Source: a virus
Strand: one strand, 5' to 3'
IMG/VR virus record: IMGVR_UViG_3300020463_000043
Span: 1-41,342 of that record
Length of the DNA: 41,342 nucleotides
Shown here: positions 10,143 to 41,342 of the stretch, piece after piece
How the letters are laid out: every line of letters starts with the position of its first letter
Position numbering within the stretch: position 1 is the first letter of the stretch
Notes under the pieces: model-generated
Database searches by the model: none
What the model saw: only the letters and a program-made list of their open reading frames with translations
What the model was told of the DNA's origin: nothing
Program-made: the position numbers and the translations under genes

Positions 10143-11225
10143 CTACACTGCCAACTGACAATTTGCACTCGCATCTATTTGCATCCACTTAGACCACTCA
10201 CCGTAATAATGCCTCATACCCACTTCGTCATGGATCGTTCCGTTCTCATGTCGTCCATGTAGTATGTTGCGAGGCTCAGTACCCGGCCTCATTGTTGTTC
10301 CCTGCCCAGCAACGCCAATCAGGTCTTCGTGAAGATTACGCCCAAATGGACCCCAAATAGAGTTGTGATGCTTGATGCGGGTCTGACGCTCTTCAGGCGT
10401 ATCTTTTTTAAGACCGTATCCACGAAACTCAATAAGAACTTTGTTTGGCCCAAGAGGTGTAACGCTATCGCTTCTATAAGCACTGCCGCGTAAATTAAAA
10501 TTAAATCCGGGGAAAAGGTCCACCATATACCACTGATTGGGAGGGAGGTTAGGGAAACTAAGCTCTCCTCTATCCTCAAAGCCATCGTATTCCTCGTAGT
10601 TAACTGTGAAGCTACTGACGTTAACGTGTCCATTATCGAATGGTATATTTTTTCTAGCAAAATATTCATCGTTAAAACCTGAAACACGATTAAAGTAATG
10701 CATAAAATCGTGGTAGAACTCGCTGTTTGTGTCATGCCACAGTTTGTAATTCGTATCTATAATCGCCTTGTGATAATGGAAAACTTCCATTTCTTCTGTG
10801 TCTATTGCATCTGCAATGCAATCAAACGCCCCAGCAGTCCACTCATCGACCGTCATTGGGTTGTCTTCATCTAAAGTGGTCCAGACCATTCCACCATGCC
10901 TAACCTCGCAAGGAAGCTCTGTCCAAACCCCTGAGTGATAACCCAAGGACAAGTCATTACCAGAAGGGCGTCTAACCTTGTCCGTAAGAAACGCCCTAAT
11001 TACATTGTTCTCAAATCGGACAGCTACCACATTTTTTAATGCTATCTGTGTTGTCCTAAAATCACCAAAGTTAGGCATTTCGCTAGAATGACACATAGGA
11101 ATCCACACCTTGGAAAAGATGTTTTGTATCTCCTGTTCGTACACAGATTGCTCAGAATATATCAAAGAGCTTATATACTCTATCTTTGGAGCCTTTGACC
11201 AATCCTTATGATTTCTTGGCGGCAT
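10143..11225 (-). CDS. Rieske-type oxygenase-like protein lacking cluster ligands (360 aa)
   Basis: Overall layout matches the alpha subunit of Rieske non-heme iron oxygenases. The N-terminal fold is recognisable (EIQNIFSKVWIPMCHSSEMP, NFGDFRTTQIALKNVVAVRF, IRAFL, then HGGMVWTTLD). Where CxH and CxxH should ligate the 2Fe-2S cluster, residues 81-101 read TDKVRRPSGNDLSLGYHSGVW, with no cysteine and a shortened loop. The catalytic half keeps the 2-His-1-carboxylate candidates: His172 and His176 in NSEFYHDFMH, with Glu169 nearby, and Asp301 in NLHEDLIGVAGQG. The second His is one residue closer than usual. It lies in the late block among virion genes. It may be an auxiliary metabolic enzyme with a changed electron route, or a repurposed scaffold. 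Confidence 0.75.
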   Translation of the reverse strand: MPPRNHKDWSKAPKIEYISSLIYSEQSVYEQEIQNIFSKVWIPMCHSSEMPNFGDFRTTQIALKNVVAVRFENNVIRAFLTDKVRRPSGNDLSLGYHSGVWTELPCEVRHGGMVWTTLDEDNPMTVDEWTAGAFDCIADAIDTEEMEVFHYHKAIIDTNYKLWHDTNSEFYHDFMHYFNRVSGFNDEYFARKNIPFDNGHVNVSSFTVNYEEYDGFEDRGELSFPNLPPNQWYMVDLFPGFNFNLRGSAYRSDSVTPLGPNKVLIEFRGYGLKKDTPEERQTRIKHHNSIWGPFGRNLHEDLIGVAGQGTTMRPGTEPRNILHGRHENGTIHDEVGMRHYYGEWSKWMQIDASANCQLAV

Positions 11226-11233
11226 TCTAACTC

Positions 11234-11356
11234 CTATTTACAAGAACAAGAACCGCATGTGCAGGGGCAGCTTTTACAGTCCCCTTTGCGTAAAACAAAG
11301 TACCCAAAAGCAACGCCTATCATTGCCACTAGAAAAAGTTGAAACAAATCATCCAC
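11234..11356 (-). CDS. Cys-rich membrane microprotein (40 aa)
   Basis: A GTG start at 11356 lies 7 bases after a perfect AGGAGGT ribosome-binding site. The peptide has one transmembrane helix (LFQLFLVAMIGVAFGYFVL, residues 4-22) and then a short tail, GDCKSCPCTCGSCSCK, with six cysteines spaced C-x2-C-x-C-x-C-x2-C-x-C. Such a tail could hold a metal ion or an iron-sulphur centre at the membrane face. It sits 8 bases upstream of the Rieske-like gene and overlaps the 170-residue basic gene by 8 bases. No family name is known to me. Confidence 0.6.
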   Translation of the reverse strand: MDDLFQLFLVAMIGVAFGYFVLRKGDCKSCPCTCGSCSCK

Positions 11357-25180: not shown

Positions 25181-26194
25181 ATGCGGATATCGCAATCAAA
25201 AGCTATTGTCGAAGCTTGTATCGACAGTCAAGTAAAGCATTCAAATGGGCGTGATGCCCAGCGTCCAATCCCTTACCTTGTCGGCGGTGCTGGCTTAGGT
25301 AAAACCACCATCGTTCAGCAAATCGCTGAAGATCGTGGGATATCATTAAAGACGGTCAGCCTATCCCAGTACGATGCTGGTGAATTGGCAGGCTGGCTGG
25401 TCAATGATGGCGATGGAATGAAACGCCTACGTCCAGACTGGATGCCAGCCGATGGAGTGGGCATCCTGTTCCTAGATGAATTGCCGCAAGCCCCAGTGTC
25501 GAACCAGAATATCGCGGCTCAAATCGTGAATGAAAGACGCATTGGTCAGCATCGTTTGCCTGAGGGTTGGGCTATCGTTTGCGCTGGCAATCGCACCAGT
25601 GATCGTGCTGGCACAAACAACATGCCCAGTCATCTTAAAGATAGGCTTCTATTCATTGAGGTTGACGCTGATCTGGAAGACGCGGTGGCATACTATAACA
25701 GTGTCGGGGTATCGCCTATGATCACTGGCTTCTTACGCTTTCGCCCTGAGTTACTGCACAAGTTTGACCGCGATGCGAACTCTTGCCCATCACCTAGAAG
25801 TTGGGAGCGTGTCGATACCATCATGGGTTTCAAGCTTGATGCCGTTAATGAGAATGAGGCGGTTGCTGGTCAGGTGGGGCGCGGTGCATGTGCTGAGTTT
25901 ATGGGCTACAAAAAAGTTTACGAGAGTTGCCCAGATATTGACGCACTTATCGCCAACCCAGATAGTGCCCCAATCGCTGAAGACCCAGCGGTTTGTTACG
26001 CAGTGTCTGCGGCTCTGAGTAGTCGAGCCAACGATAAAAATATCGGCAATATCATTCAGTACCTGAAAAGATTACCGCACAAAGAATTTGCGGTGTTCTC
26101 AATTCGGGATGCAATGCACCGCACACCAAGCATTAAAAAGACTGATGCATTCCGCAAGTTCCTACTTTCGGACGGCAAAGAATTGATGCTGTAA
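25181..26194 (+). CDS. MoxR-like AAA+ ATPase (337 aa)
   Basis: MoxR ATPases act as chaperones that use ATP to mature or remodel a partner, usually encoded beside a VWA-domain protein. Walker A is GGAGLGKT at residues 35-42, Walker B GILFLDE at 94-100, sensor 1 lies at CAGNRTSD (137), and an arginine finger candidate is Arg155 in LKDRLLFIEV. The C-terminal lid is helical. GGAG precedes the ATG. The next gene encodes the expected VWA partner, so the pairing is well supported. Which host or phage complex they act on is unknown. Confidence 0.85.
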   Translation: MRISQSKAIVEACIDSQVKHSNGRDAQRPIPYLVGGAGLGKTTIVQQIAEDRGISLKTVSLSQYDAGELAGWLVNDGDGMKRLRPDWMPADGVGILFLDELPQAPVSNQNIAAQIVNERRIGQHRLPEGWAIVCAGNRTSDRAGTNNMPSHLKDRLLFIEVDADLEDAVAYYNSVGVSPMITGFLRFRPELLHKFDRDANSCPSPRSWERVDTIMGFKLDAVNENEAVAGQVGRGACAEFMGYKKVYESCPDIDALIANPDSAPIAEDPAVCYAVSAALSSRANDKNIGNIIQYLKRLPHKEFAVFSIRDAMHRTPSIKKTDAFRKFLLSDGKELML

Positions 26195-26198
26195 AACT

Positions 26199-26215
26199 GG
26201 GGGGATTTTCCCCCC
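26199..26215 (+). terminator. Intercistronic hairpin, possible attenuator
   Basis: Six G (26199-26204), an ATTTT loop and six C (26210-26215), followed by TCTTCTTTC. It lies between the MoxR and VWA genes and could reduce read-through, giving more ATPase than VWA protein. Confidence 0.45.
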
Positions 26216-26235
26216 TCTTCTTTCGGGAGATTAAG

Positions 26236-27387
26236 ATGGATATAGAAACCAAAATTGCGAGAGCAAAAACCAGACTAGTCCTAGACAAGCCCTTCTGGGG
26301 CTCGCTGACCTTGGGCTTGCCTTTTATCAAAGATGACACGATTGCTACGATGGCAACTGATGGCAAATGCATTCGCTGGAACCCATCATTCGTTGATGGC
26401 CTGAGTGATAAAGGCTTGCAGTTTGTCATAGCGCACGAGGTGGGTCACGCGATGCTGAACCATTGCATCCCAGTCAAGACAATTGACGGTCATCCAACGA
26501 ATACTGAACTGCAAAATATCTCAATGGATTATGTCATCAATGCTTACTTAAAAGAGGATGGTATGGAAATGCCAGAGGGTGGTTTGTATGACCCTCAATA
26601 CTCTGGGATGACATGGCTCCAAGTGTATAGGCTGTTAAACCGCCTAGAACGCGATAAGAAGCCTTCCAAGCAGCCTTGGGGTGGTGATGTAGGTGAGATG
26701 CAAGGTAAGGACGGTAGTGAGCCTTCTAAGGCCGAAATAGAACAGGCCAAGGCAGAGAATGATCAGCGTGTGATGCTTGCCGCATCTAATGCAAAATCTG
26801 TCGGCAAACTATCGGGCAAGCTTGAGGAACTAATCAACAAAATGAGGCGTTCTGAGGTTGACTGGCGTGATGTGTTCAACCGCTTTATCGGTGGTGATCA
26901 GCCTGATGATTACACGTTCAGACGTTGTAATAAAAAGGTCTACTACACTCAAGGCATCTACATGCCAGCGGTTGATAAGATCGGTGTCGGTGATGTGGTG
27001 GTGGCTGTTGATACCAGTGGTTCAGTCGGTACTGTTGAACTCCAGCAATTTCTGGGGGAACTCAACAATATGTCGGAAGACCATAAACCTAGAAGCCTTA
27101 CTGTCATAACTTGTGACAGCGAAATTCAATCTGTCGAAACCTACGGTCAGGGCGATATCGTTGACAAGATAGAGTGCAAAGGTCGGGGCGGTACGCGAGT
27201 TAAGCCTGTGTTCGATTATATCGAAGACAACTGCTTGCCTGTCGATAATTTCGTTTACCTCACCGACATGGGAATATTTGATTTCCCGAAAACCGCACCA
27301 GATTATCCGGTGCTTTGGGTATCAACTGATGAGCGGTGTAATGATGCACCGTTTGGTGAAACAACACGCATAGAGGTGGCGGCTTAG
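26236..27387 (+). CDS. VWA-domain protein with zincin-like N-terminus (DUF2201-like, 383 aa)
   Basis: The N-terminal domain contains HEVGHAMLNH at residues 67-76, a metal-binding HExxH motif with a further His, as in DUF2201-type putative metallopeptidases. Around residues 140-185 lies a charged linker. The C-terminal VWA domain has the MIDAS sequence DTSGS at 259-263, with CDSEIQSVE and TDMGIFDFP later. MoxR and VWA proteins usually work as a pair, the ATPase remodelling what the VWA protein holds. Proteolytic activity is suggested by the HEVGH but not shown. Confidence 0.85.
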   Translation: MDIETKIARAKTRLVLDKPFWGSLTLGLPFIKDDTIATMATDGKCIRWNPSFVDGLSDKGLQFVIAHEVGHAMLNHCIPVKTIDGHPTNTELQNISMDYVINAYLKEDGMEMPEGGLYDPQYSGMTWLQVYRLLNRLERDKKPSKQPWGGDVGEMQGKDGSEPSKAEIEQAKAENDQRVMLAASNAKSVGKLSGKLEELINKMRRSEVDWRDVFNRFIGGDQPDDYTFRRCNKKVYYTQGIYMPAVDKIGVGDVVVAVDTSGSVGTVELQQFLGELNNMSEDHKPRSLTVITCDSEIQSVETYGQGDIVDKIECKGRGGTRVKPVFDYIEDNCLPVDNFVYLTDMGIFDFPKTAPDYPVLWVSTDERCNDAPFGETTRIEVAA

Positions 27388-36692: not shown

Positions 36693-36729
36693 CCCAAGAC
36701 TGTCTTGCTGGGCGGTCTTGGGCTTTTAT
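36693..36729 (+). terminator. Rho-independent terminator for the recombination block
   Basis: CCCAAGAC (36693-36700) pairs with GTCTTGGG (36715-36722), followed by CTTTTAT. It overlaps the stop of the convergent minus gene. A separate inverted repeat TTAGGAGT/ACTCCTAA (36640-36673) lies before it. Confidence 0.6.
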
Positions 36730-39700
36730 CTTATACCAGCATCCCTAACGACCTTTGCGGCTCTCTTCTCTACCTCTTGTATCTTTTCTCTCAGCCTTCT
36801 TATAATGGCTTTCTTTTGCTCTTCTGGTATGGTCTGACTTGACTGCACCTTGTTCTTGTTTCTTACAAGCTTGTTCCTAAAGTTGTTCATGGCCTTAAGC
36901 TGACCGTATATTCTCAACTCTTTATCGTACTGTCTGCGTATCTTTTGTTCTCTGCCCACATCTCCAGATTGCAAAGAGAATTGTAGTTCCTTGCCAGCCC
37001 TTAGAATGCGATCCCTGTTTTCTATGTACTTCCCCGTGTCTTCTCTTGAAGAAGGCGCGGTAAAAACTTTTCTGACAAACGGTATTTCTCTTATTATATC
37101 CCCGTCTAAATCATCTTTAAACGACTCAATAACTTTTGAAGGAGACTCAGCAGTTCTTAGGGCAAACGATCCTGCCGCGCCAGTAAAATACTGTGCCCAA
37201 TAGTTTATTGTTTCCGGAGAAATATCTACCAATCCGGGAGTTACCTCAGTTCCTCCAGTTGCTGTGTTTATTGCACTTGCTATATTTTTGAACAAGGCGC
37301 TTGTGTTAGACCAGTACAGTTGACTGTCTGGCTTTTGGACACCAAAGGGAGATGCCTCTTTTACTATGGGGTCACCCTTAAAGTCTTTATTAACGGCAAG
37401 ACTTACGAATGGGTCAGCTACCGTAGGCACAATAGCGTTTTCCCAGTTGGTATCTCCAAGTGGGTTAAGAGATTCGGCTAGCGTTCCAAATGTGGAGTTA
37501 AATGCTTCTGCCGGAGTGTACTCACCACGTTGCACCCTACTCATTGATCGGCCTAAGTTTAGGGCTGTATTGATTCCATACCCTAAAGGTATCTTGATGA
37601 ATTTTTTATCGGTCAACCCGAATGTCGGGAATATAAGGTTATGCTCAAGTGTGTACTCACCAAGCTCATCGTAATCGCTTATTCCGTCTTCGTCATCGTC
37701 CCCTGAGAACGCTGATGCAAATTGATCAAGCAGGACACCAGCGACAATCATCCCTCCCCATATCTTGCGAACTTTAGAAGACCTTATGCCAGCATTAAAC
37801 AGAGCCATCGACCCCTGAACAGAAGCGTTGTAGAAAAGATACAAGGCGTTCATCAGGGCCTTTTCTTCACCCTGTTTTGCAAAGTTAACCGTTACGTTTC
37901 TTGCTGCTTGGGCTGCTCTGTCCTTACTGTAACCTCTTTTTAGAAGGGCGTGATATGTGGCAACACGGACACCGTTCTCAATGGCTGTGTTGTAATCGTC
38001 TAGGAACTGACCAATCTTGTTTACAAAACCATTTCTGGATAGACCCAGTTTGCCCTTTAAGCTGTTGTTTGAAACCTCATCAAGAACATTCTTGATCCTC
38101 TCCATTTGATCCTTAACGCTATCAACTTGGTTAGTCGAGTTCTTGCCACCGTTTGCTCTGAAGTCATCATATATTTTTGCCCATTCTCCAGATGGGTCAT
38201 CATCCCTTATTCTTTTTACAATTCCAGCAACAGCTTTAGGGGCATCCTTGAATATTTCTTTAGTAATGCCCTCTTGGTCGTACTGATTAATATTTACACC
38301 TGCGGTCTCCAAGTCCCTAAAGAAGTTTGTGATTGCAAACTCTGGGTTCCAAGTTGTGTTGATGTTTGAAAGATACCTGTTGAACTTCGCCATAGACCTA
38401 ACTATAGCGCCACCTCTTTCGATGCCATCACCACCAGCACCTCTCATGGCTCTGGCAACCCTGTTGTCTCTTATCAGAACATTGATAGGCTCTTGTCGTC
38501 CATCGATCTTTACCTTCAGAACATTCTCTTGAATGTCAGGGGTAACCTTGTCAATAACCTTTGCTATGCCGTCCCTGTCATCTTTTGACATAATGTATTC
38601 TGCTTCTGGATCAAAAATCTTTGGATCGATTATCTTCAGGAACGACTGACCAACTTTATTCCTTTCAGCAGCCACAATAGATTGTGAGTTCTGAACCATA
38701 ACATTAGCGATGATATCTTCTGCGTAGTTCGGCCCCCTACCAGTAGTTATTTGTGGGCCTTGATAGGCCACGCCGCCGTATAGATTATTTCTTTTCTTTC
38801 TTCCTACCCTTGGCACGCTATCCAAATCTTCGGAAATGTCTTCTTCTGGATCAAGTATGCCCCGCAAAGGAACATAATTTGAAAAATTATACTCCTCCGC
38901 CATAAGGCCACCCTCTCGCCTTACGTCATTTGTGTTCTTTACAATTTGTACTACCGTATCTTTTATTCCATTTAGCGTGCTTTTGTTCGCAATATCTAAA
39001 GACTCAACCCAGTTAAGGATACGATCAGCTTCCTGATTAGACATGCCTGAGCCAAGGCCAACTCCTTTTCGTGCCTCAACGTATGCGTTTCGTTCTTTCG
39101 CGTGGAGTGCATATACATAAGCATCAGCTATTGCCAGCTTTGGATCGTATGCTCCTCTGGCATCGTCAAAAAAGTCGGATATCCCGGCTAGCTCATCTAT
39201 TTTTGCTTGAGTGATATCAATTTGTTTTATTGTGTCTGTGAGAGGTTCGTACAGTTTTTCCTTGTTCTCATCAAGCTGATAGCCCATAACACCTTGGGCT
39301 AGCTCTTCTCTCATATATACGTCCATAGCGTCAGGTATGGTAAGGCCATCAGACCTTAGCGTATCCATCAGCTTTCCAACAGGAAGCATTGAGTCTTGGA
39401 ACTTTGTTATAAACCTTTCAGTCTTCGCCTCCCAACGCTTTGCTGTTGGATCATCAAACACCTTTGAATAAAGGTTTCCAAGAACCCTTCCAACATTGTT
39501 ATAGGTTGTTCTTTCGTAAGACTGTTCTGCTGCCTTAATCATTTGCTCATTTGACACAAGAGGCTGTGTACCCTCAATCGTCAGAGGAATGTATCTTACC
39601 GACCGCTTACTATATTTTGTTTTGTCTTCTGAGGTCTCCGATAGGCTTGATTCCTCAATGTCATCACGAACTTCCTCATCAATTCGTCCGGCACTTGATT

Positions 39701-41342
39701 GACCACTGCCGATGACTCTGTCTGCTTCAGCGAGTGTTTCCTTGATTTCGTTGTCACTTTTACCTTCCTTCCTTAATAGAGCTATAGCTCCGTCAATATA
39801 GTCATTATTGTCGCCCTGTCCCTTTGGCACGCCCAGAGAGTACAAAAACTTTTTCTCAGGGAACCACATAAGAGCTTGGAAGTCAGCCATTGATATGTCC
39901 TGACCAGTGTCCTCTTTTAATATATCTATAGCCCTGTTTGTGATACGCCTCATTGCTGCTCTATCACTTGCGTTTCTTGGGTCTTCTTGAAGCTCGCCAA
40001 GAGAGTTTATTTTATATCTTTCGGATGATAAAAATAATTCTGTCTTATCAGGCCTTAAATCCGCTGTCTTTGCACGATTAAAGTCGGCTTGAAAAAGCCT
40101 GTCTAGCTCTACAGCCACACTTAAAGCATTTGCTTCTGTTATGGCGTCAACATCAGCAGCATTCTTTGCATCCTCCAACATGGAGTTTTCAAAGTTTGTT
40201 AGCGGCATATTTGTTGCCGCAATAAACCTAGCCATATTCCTAGGCACAGTTGTGGGTTGTAGCTTCTTAAATGGGTTGCCACTGATGCGATTAAACATTC
40301 GCATCCACCATCTATCCATTGTCAGGGTTTCATAGTTTCCTGAGAGGTTCTGGAAAAATCCGTTTCCAATTTTAGCTCCAAGGACATACGATACATATAT
40401 CTCCTGAGCCGCAAGCTCAGATGTTGGGACAGATATACCTAAAGAACTTAAAATAGGGTTCTGCCTAAGCTCTGACACAGTCATCTTTTGAGATAGAAAA
40501 TCTTTTATCTCAGCCTCGGTCATGCCATTGTCTTTCATGGCGTTCCAAAACTTGAACCCCTTGATCATTGACTTGCCTTGGTTGCCGTAGCCTTTCTCTA
40601 AAAACTTTCCTGTTTTTACCCAGTTTCTGTACTGTTCTGAAGCAAACTCCCAGTTACCTATGACTGATACACCGTTGGATGTTATAGCTGTGGCAAAGTC
40701 ATAAGCCAGTTCATGGTCTGGGTCAGTGGCAACATCAGGGAATAAAGATGCTGTTAGTATCTTTGCTTTCTTTAAGGTTGTGTCATACCACCCAATTGCA
40801 TTGTTATCTTGCGATAAAGCAAACTCAGCTTCAGCAGCCATTATTGTAGCTATTTTTTCTGCATCAACTTCGTCATCTATATTTAAAACAACGTTGCCTC
40901 TTTTTTCTTGGTACGATCTTATCGCGTCTTCTATTTTAATTTTATTCTTTGGGGCCTGCCTAACAAAATATCCGTTGTCGAACTCTCCAGTCTCTGGATC
41001 AACGAAATCAATTATAGAAAGACCTCTTAGGCTTGTAGTGAGCCTTCTAATAGACTGCTTCTTTGCTTCAACGTCTATGACTGGCTTTACAACGGTGTCA
41101 TCAAACATGGCAGCAACCATGCCCATTCTGGAGTTACTCCAGTAACCAGAGTAACCAGCATCTTTTATAGAGTTTTCAGCGGTTGTTGCTATGAACGGCT
41201 TGGGGTTGCCCCAAGTCCTTTCCATGATGTTTTCGTTTACTGACGCAGCCGCTTTGGATACAAAGCCATCTGGGTCTTGATCATAGTTGTAAAGAGAATC
41301 AAGTGGTACTTTTGTCTCGTAGACATTCTCGCCTACGGTTGC
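36726..41342 (-). CDS. Giant polyvalent-type virion protein, LPD38-like C-terminus (partial, over 1530 aa)
   Basis: The frame is open to the window edge; 39 residues precede the first ATG at 41225, so that ATG is not the true start. The visible N-terminal part (YNYDQDPDGF, KDAGYSGYWSN, AAMFDDTVVKPV) resembles ADP-ribosyltransferase-like domains of polyvalent phage proteins. The C-terminal 450 residues show LPD38-type features: NTTWNPEFAITNFFRDLETA, a helix YLFYNASVQGSMALFNA, SGDDDEDGISDYDELGE (a calcium-loop-like acidic turn) and IKIPLGYGINTALNLG. Such proteins are packaged and ejected into the host. No hydrolase motif is certain in the visible part. Confidence 0.75.
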   Translation of the reverse strand, partial: ATVGENVYETKVPLDSLYNYDQDPDGFVSKAAASVNENIMERTWGNPKPFIATTAENSIKDAGYSGYWSNSRMGMVAAMFDDTVVKPVIDVEAKKQSIRRLTTSLRGLSIIDFVDPETGEFDNGYFVRQAPKNKIKIEDAIRSYQEKRGNVVLNIDDEVDAEKIATIMAAEAEFALSQDNNAIGWYDTTLKKAKILTASLFPDVATDPDHELAYDFATAITSNGVSVIGNWEFASEQYRNWVKTGKFLEKGYGNQGKSMIKGFKFWNAMKDNGMTEAEIKDFLSQKMTVSELRQNPILSSLGISVPTSELAAQEIYVSYVLGAKIGNGFFQNLSGNYETLTMDRWWMRMFNRISGNPFKKLQPTTVPRNMARFIAATNMPLTNFENSMLEDAKNAADVDAITEANALSVAVELDRLFQADFNRAKTADLRPDKTELFLSSERYKINSLGELQEDPRNASDRAAMRRITNRAIDILKEDTGQDISMADFQALMWFPEKKFLYSLGVPKGQGDNNDYIDGAIALLRKEGKSDNEIKETLAEADRVIGSGQSSAGRIDEEVRDDIEESSLSETSEDKTKYSKRSVRYIPLTIEGTQPLVSNEQMIKAAEQSYERTTYNNVGRVLGNLYSKVFDDPTAKRWEAKTERFITKFQDSMLPVGKLMDTLRSDGLTIPDAMDVYMREELAQGVMGYQLDENKEKLYEPLTDTIKQIDITQAKIDELAGISDFFDDARGAYDPKLAIADAYVYALHAKERNAYVEARKGVGLGSGMSNQEADRILNWVESLDIANKSTLNGIKDTVVQIVKNTNDVRREGGLMAEEYNFSNYVPLRGILDPEEDISEDLDSVPRVGRKKRNNLYGGVAYQGPQITTGRGPNYAEDIIANVMVQNSQSIVAAERNKVGQSFLKIIDPKIFDPEAEYIMSKDDRDGIAKVIDKVTPDIQENVLKVKIDGRQEPINVLIRDNRVARAMRGAGGDGIERGGAIVRSMAKFNRYLSNINTTWNPEFAITNFFRDLETAGVNINQYDQEGITKEIFKDAPKAVAGIVKRIRDDDPSGEWAKIYDDFRANGGKNSTNQVDSVKDQMERIKNVLDEVSNNSLKGKLGLSRNGFVNKIGQFLDDYNTAIENGVRVATYHALLKRGYSKDRAAQAARNVTVNFAKQGEEKALMNALYLFYNASVQGSMALFNAGIRSSKVRKIWGGMIVAGVLLDQFASAFSGDDDEDGISDYDELGEYTLEHNLIFPTFGLTDKKFIKIPLGYGINTALNLGRSMSRVQRGEYTPAEAFNSTFGTLAESLNPLGDTNWENAIVPTVADPFVSLAVNKDFKGDPIVKEASPFGVQKPDSQLYWSNTSALFKNIASAINTATGGTEVTPGLVDISPETINYWAQYFTGAAGSFALRTAESPSKVIESFKDDLDGDIIREIPFVRKVFTAPSSREDTGKYIENRDRILRAGKELQFSLQSGDVGREQKIRRQYDKELRIYGQLKAMNNFRNKLVRNKNKVQSSQTIPEEQKKAIIRRLREKIQEVEKRAAKVVRDAGIR

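Follow-up and report, generated by a model that had tools for sequence, protein, structure and literature searches.

A gene on the minus strand of the marine viral record IMGVR_UViG_3300020463_000043, which was analysed over its full length of 41,342 nucleotides (the window), probably encodes one alpha subunit of a split methanesulfonate monooxygenase, a catalytic-only chain that bears the iron and would obtain its Rieske cluster from an alpha subunit of the host. The open reading frame (ORF) runs from position 11225 to 10143, starts with ATG, encodes 360 amino acids and contains no internal stop. This reading is carried by the ligand patterns of the protein and its relatives, the reciprocal loss of redox centres in two bacterial paralogues, their operon linkage, their co-occurrence and the mirrored selection on their two halves.

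Judged from its sequence, the protein is by descent a member of the family of methanesulfonate monooxygenase alpha subunits (MsmA), with which it shares 57-65% identity over the whole protein; common descent is also supported by the tree. The initial annotation, which was made from the DNA alone and described a Rieske-type oxygenase, was right about the family, which can be placed more precisely as MsmA. The Pfam family Ring_hydroxyl_A (PF00848) matches residues 144-349 above the family cut-off (E 1e-6), residues 20-82 match the Rieske-domain start of biphenyl dioxygenases (phmmer, E 3e-9), and the N-terminal stretches that had been quoted as landmarks of the Rieske fold are all present. The AlphaFold2 model proposes the overall alpha-subunit fold of Rieske non-heme iron oxygenases (predicted local distance difference test, pLDDT, 83.5; predicted template modelling score, pTM, 0.86; low confidence around residues 171-181 and 292-296). 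Only structures of the Rieske-oxygenase family were among the 50 PDB matches listed by Foldseek (best E 1e-19).

Rieske ligands and iron site

The CxH and CxxH ligands of the 2Fe-2S cluster are missing from all short-form rows aligned. In the alignment to ordinary MsmA both ligand loops of the window protein appear as deletions, not as substitutions, which confirms the absence first noted from the sequence. The long-spacer Rieske motif of MsmA (CxH-X26-CxxH) was not found in the window protein, which by this criterion does not represent a canonical MsmA. Glu169, His172 and His176 lie in the motif NSEFYHDFMHY, which is identical in ordinary MsmA, and they are present in every row compared of the viral proteins, of ordinary MsmA and of the short form of SAR116 bacteria described below. 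These three residues and Asp301 are located exactly at the positions given in the initial annotation. Based on this motif identity the window protein seems to keep the 2-His-1-carboxylate iron site together with the bridging acid, Glu169 corresponding to the bridging Glu of CntA.

The degenerate Rieske domain of the phage protein cannot carry electrons. An alternative cluster in the Rieske remnant was rejected, since no conserved set of Cys and His residues that could hold one was found there.

Relatives of the window protein are encoded on at least 599 viral stretches. The ligand loss is universal and the iron site is always kept among the 116 distinct viral sequences collected (116/116), a question that had been raised at the outset. 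Phage homologues with intact ligands, set beforehand as the evidence to look for against the claimed loss, were sought in two ways. Codon-degenerate scans for two MsmA Rieske motifs gave no match in the whole viral collection; the CMFHxWQFD codon pattern matches 110 loci elsewhere, so that this one pattern works. All 67 viral copies with a complete N-terminal half, which were drawn independently by the codon pattern of the iron site, lack the Rieske ligands as well. A local sequencing error is excluded because of this universal loss.

The SAR116 operon and its reciprocally degenerate fusion

A genome scan revealed ordinary MsmA of about 420 amino acids with both sites and, in SAR116 bacteria, a short chromosomal form of 362 amino acids, which is likewise ligandless and shares about 78% identity with the phage protein. 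The short gene is surrounded by genes for an MsmA-reductase fusion, MsmB, MsmC, an unknown ORF, a LysR regulator and a TauE sulfite exporter. The short gene and the fusion are not adjacent in two genomes, those of L092 and L095, where they are about 12-14 kb apart.

The fusion (about 796 amino acids) comprises the Rieske domain followed by Pyr_redox_2 and Reductase_C, and its alpha part is predicted by modelling to adopt the Rieske-oxygenase alpha fold. All four Rieske ligands are intact in the 13 fusions compared (13/13), while none of them retains Glu169, His172 or Asp301, each of these being deleted or substituted (13/13). The His176 column contains His in a single fusion out of 13, within a gapped region. 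In one SAR116 genome (2,753,527 bp), in which the region is alignable, the fusion reads K, Q and K at Glu169, His172 and His176.

Among 98 genomes of the order, nine encode the short form; the fusion is complete in eight of these and truncated by the contig end in the ninth. One further genome has only an intact MsmA and 88 have none of these genes. As the 98 genomes are related, the co-occurrence in 9/9 is not an independent-sample statistic.

Mean pairwise identity of the Rieske and catalytic domains amounts to 49% and 94% in the viral short forms, 92% and 41% in the fusion and 80% and 82% in intact MsmA. The ratio of nonsynonymous to synonymous polymorphism (pN/pS), which is rough due to synonymous sites close to saturation, is 0.49 and 0.073 in the viral short forms, 0.18 and 0.05 in the SAR116 short form, 0.07 and 0.49 in the fusion and 0.10 and 0.09 in intact MsmA. 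In either paralogue conservation is confined to the half in which a redox centre remains. Recent recombination as the source of the conserved catalytic half was rejected on account of the near-saturated synonymous sites.

No viral MsmA-reductase fusion was detected in the scan with the fusion protein, no linked msmB or msmC in the 1.6 Mb of viral DNA examined, and no phage-encoded Rieske half, MsmB, MsmC or ORF4 in the viral DNA scans.

The SAR116 short forms and most phage short forms constitute one clade (Shimodaira-Hasegawa-like approximate likelihood ratio test, SH-aLRT, 99-100). In the tree, gammaproteobacterial MsmA is joined by a second set of ligandless viral proteins, which makes it most likely that the Rieske ligands were lost at least twice, independently. 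Four viral ligandless MsmA relatives (L365, L367, L379 and L423; 61-66% identical to the window protein) may represent additional lineages intermediate between the two viral clades. A split system near the second viral clade was not found in 109 genomes of one order, 19 of which matched, almost all with frames of ordinary MsmA length and one with a frame cut at a contig edge.

The free tree nests the SAR116 short gene among phage sequences. A phage origin of this gene was not upheld, since phage monophyly was not rejected (approximately unbiased, AU, test, p 0.596). Regarding a classification as auxiliary metabolic gene, homology to a host metabolic gene was found, and the same AU value applies to the direction of transfer. 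The terminase of the Puniceispirillum phage HMO-2011 is common to 13 of the 29 carrier records tested, only L001 shares the terminase type of the window, and the remaining records match neither type; these differences indicate that the short msmA gene is carried by unrelated phages.

Several observations concern the bacterial loci. An unknown protein of 279 amino acids without Pfam match (L083:3953-4792; homologues in SAR116 operons) is encoded between MsmC and the short MsmA, and weak relatives of it occur near ordinary msm operons in L122, L126, L129 and L137. The 2,753,527-bp SAR116 genome contains three dmsABC-like ORFs between MsmC and the unknown ORF of its msm cluster (L312:10912-15502). 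The contig L097, assigned to the Rickettsiales metagenome-assembled genome SAT45, is probably misbinned phage DNA; its flanking ORFs look T4-like by eye (ribonucleotide reductase- and glutaredoxin-like frames). The genome of L144, which also encodes an ordinary MsmA, harbours a frame of 242 amino acids (G115:C175:46794-47420) with the N-terminal half of MsmA and little of the catalytic half, possibly a Rieske-only fragment.

Proposed mechanism and alternative explanations

In CntA the Rieske cluster and the iron are 44 Å apart within a chain vs 12.2 Å across the subunit interface, and the bridging Glu is essential (PMC7948474). Given this intersubunit electron transfer, a Rieske-less chain can work if its neighbour has a Rieske cluster, and complementation in trans is likeliest because electrons pass from subunit to subunit in such enzymes. 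Most simply, SAR116 bacteria would have divided the two tasks between two paralogues, of which phages provide the iron-bearing one.

The phage chain would assemble with a host alpha subunit that bears a Rieske cluster; in SAR116 this is presumably the MsmA-reductase fusion, which lacks its own iron site. Electrons would be transferred from NADH via the fused reductase and the MsmC ferredoxin to the host Rieske cluster and from there across the subunit interface via Glu169 to the phage iron site, at which methanesulfonate would be oxidised to formaldehyde and sulfite. Methanesulfonate is the presumed substrate because of the operon context. During infection the phage may thereby replace or boost the catalytic subunit. 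The initial annotation had argued that a working enzyme needs another electron source; this is supported, the likely source being the reciprocally degenerate host fusion.

A wider formulation, which we favour by a small degree only, regards the SAR116 enzyme as an obligate two-gene pair of reciprocally dead alpha paralogues, the iron-only half of which is supplied by unrelated phages to give a virus-host hybrid, while the second clade became ligandless independently and would work with intact host subunits.

Several points weigh against the split enzyme. We infer the mixed assembly and its activity, as well as SAR116 as the host of the window phage. If two chain types make up a C3 ring, no more than one interface per trimer can be productive, so that the stoichiometry or the oligomer may differ. 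Conservation of the iron ligands is by itself weak evidence, because 140 of the 199 positions in the catalytic half do not vary within the clade. Furthermore, a split host is not required in general, since only ordinary MsmA was detected in the bacteria nearest to the second viral clade; the proteins of this clade may function together with intact host MsmA or in another way.

Among the alternatives, a stand-alone iron enzyme with a different chemistry or another donor (a different reductase, a ferredoxin directly or peroxide) seems unlikely, although the iron site and the pocket region are conserved and the main-clade short forms differ consistently from ordinary MsmA at eight positions of the catalytic half. 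The second viral clade still has the residues of ordinary MsmA at seven of these eight positions, the partner to which the SAR116 copy is linked shows the complementary loss, and no conserved donor gene adjoins the phage gene in the viral loci examined. A Cys-rich ORF of 40 amino acids upstream of short msmA was rejected as electron donor, since it is present in just 4 of about 80 viral loci (the window, L001, L006 and L055).

Slightly more doubtful is a role as poison or regulator, in which the phage protein would enter host MsmA assemblies and lower the methanesulfonate oxidation of the host by occupying places without a Rieske cluster. Every viral copy is Rieske-less, and the Rieske clusters would be diluted by such a chain in the bacteria related to the second viral clade, which have intact MsmA only. 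However, a poison would need neither the full iron site, the bridging Glu nor a whole catalytic half at a pN/pS of 0.07, and SAR116 bacteria encode an equivalent Rieske-less chain with their own operon.

The initial annotation had also considered that the fold is reused as a virion or binding protein. The gene is located among morphogenesis genes in the window, as is its homologue in HMO-2011, but this explanation is highly improbable taking into account that bacteria encode the same protein together with a methanesulfonate operon, that its carriers include phages with unrelated terminases and that the iron site is fully retained. A decaying pseudogene, as the four lost ligands and the variable N-terminal half might suggest, has hardly any probability left, as it is already contradicted by the selection data, the catalytic half being 94% identical despite near-saturated synonymous sites, and by more than 100 open frames; the view that the 2Fe-2S site was lost and the mononuclear site kept without decay is borne out by the catalytic-half pN/pS of 0.073.

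Neighbouring genes and comparison with known systems

Table 1. Coordinates of the short msmA gene and of its parts in the window
Feature	Position	Strand	Basis or remark
Short Rieske-less MsmA-family alpha subunit (P0001)	10143..11225	-	360 aa; ORF, translation, PF00848, homologues
Degenerate Rieske domain, residues 41-118	10872..11105	-	Both ligand loops deleted, fast-evolving; alignment to ordinary MsmA
Catalytic half, residues 147-345, nearly invariant	10191..10787	-	Identity of viral copies and pN/pS
Glu169 (bridging acid; 10719-10721), His172 (10710-10712), His176 (10698-10700)	10698..10721	-	Motif EFYHDFMH
Asp301, third iron ligand	10323..10325	-	Motif LHEDL; in all short and ordinary rows with a residue there

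The 40-amino-acid ORF immediately upstream of the short msmA gene (11234-11356, minus strand) has a strong ribosome-binding site and encodes a single hydrophobic stretch followed by a Cys-rich tail (CKSCPCTCGSCSCK). Elsewhere in the window an ATPase gene is followed by a gene for a DUF2201 metallopeptidase/VWA-like protein (25181-27387, plus strand), a pair resembling MoxR-VWA systems. A protein of 1499 amino acids with an LPD38 (large polyvalent protein) domain is encoded at 36726-41225 (minus strand), in a frame that reaches the window edge.

The bare observation of the ligand loss is not new. Henriques and De Marco reported that the “MsmA” of phage HMO-2011 and “MsmA” proteins from marine viromes lack the four Rieske residues, as does one of the two MsmA proteins of IMCC1322 (PMC4433239). 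The initial annotation missed this published loss; its interpretation held for the loss and retention of the two sites and for the need of a donor, and failed for the reuse of the fold. New are the link of the chromosomal ligandless copy of SAR116 to msm genes, the mirror-image fusion, the mirrored selection and the co-occurrence. In the literature searched for heteromeric or Rieske-less oxygenases nothing resembling the pair of short form and fusion was found.

According to a 2025 review no self-sufficient Rieske oxygenase is known (PMC12445004); the MsmA-reductase fusion represents a natural Rieske-reductase polypeptide. Two natural paralogues that each lack one redox centre would, if true, provide a clean evolutionary test of intersubunit electron transfer and a ready experimental system. 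With respect to marine sulfur cycling, counts of viral “msmA” are to be read differently, since the phage gene alone cannot oxidise methanesulfonate by the known route and would depend on a host partner.

The nearest named relative, the methanesulfonate monooxygenase alpha subunit of HMO-2011 (ADW08429.1, 74% identical), shows the same ligand loss and the same retained iron site, whereas the terminases of the two phages are unrelated. Ordinary MsmA shares a catalytic half that is about 78% identical and the EFYHDFMH and HEDL motifs; unlike the window protein, which lacks both ligand loops, it keeps CxH-X26-CxxH and is about 420 amino acids long. CntA and other alpha3 Rieske oxygenases have the same fold and the bridging Glu and transfer electrons between neighbouring subunits (PMC7948474), but a single chain type bears both centres, in contrast to the split pair. 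In the caffeine N7-demethylase NdmCDE, the iron monooxygenase NdmC has no Rieske cluster of its own and receives it in trans from the reductase polypeptide NdmD (PMC4408171). Like the phage protein, NdmC is an iron subunit without Rieske cluster, and SAR116 bacteria appear to have the same split layout, with Rieske and reductase on the partner polypeptide. Unlike the partner of NdmC, the one in SAR116 consists of a complete MsmA paralogue whose catalytic domain is dead and to which a reductase is fused.
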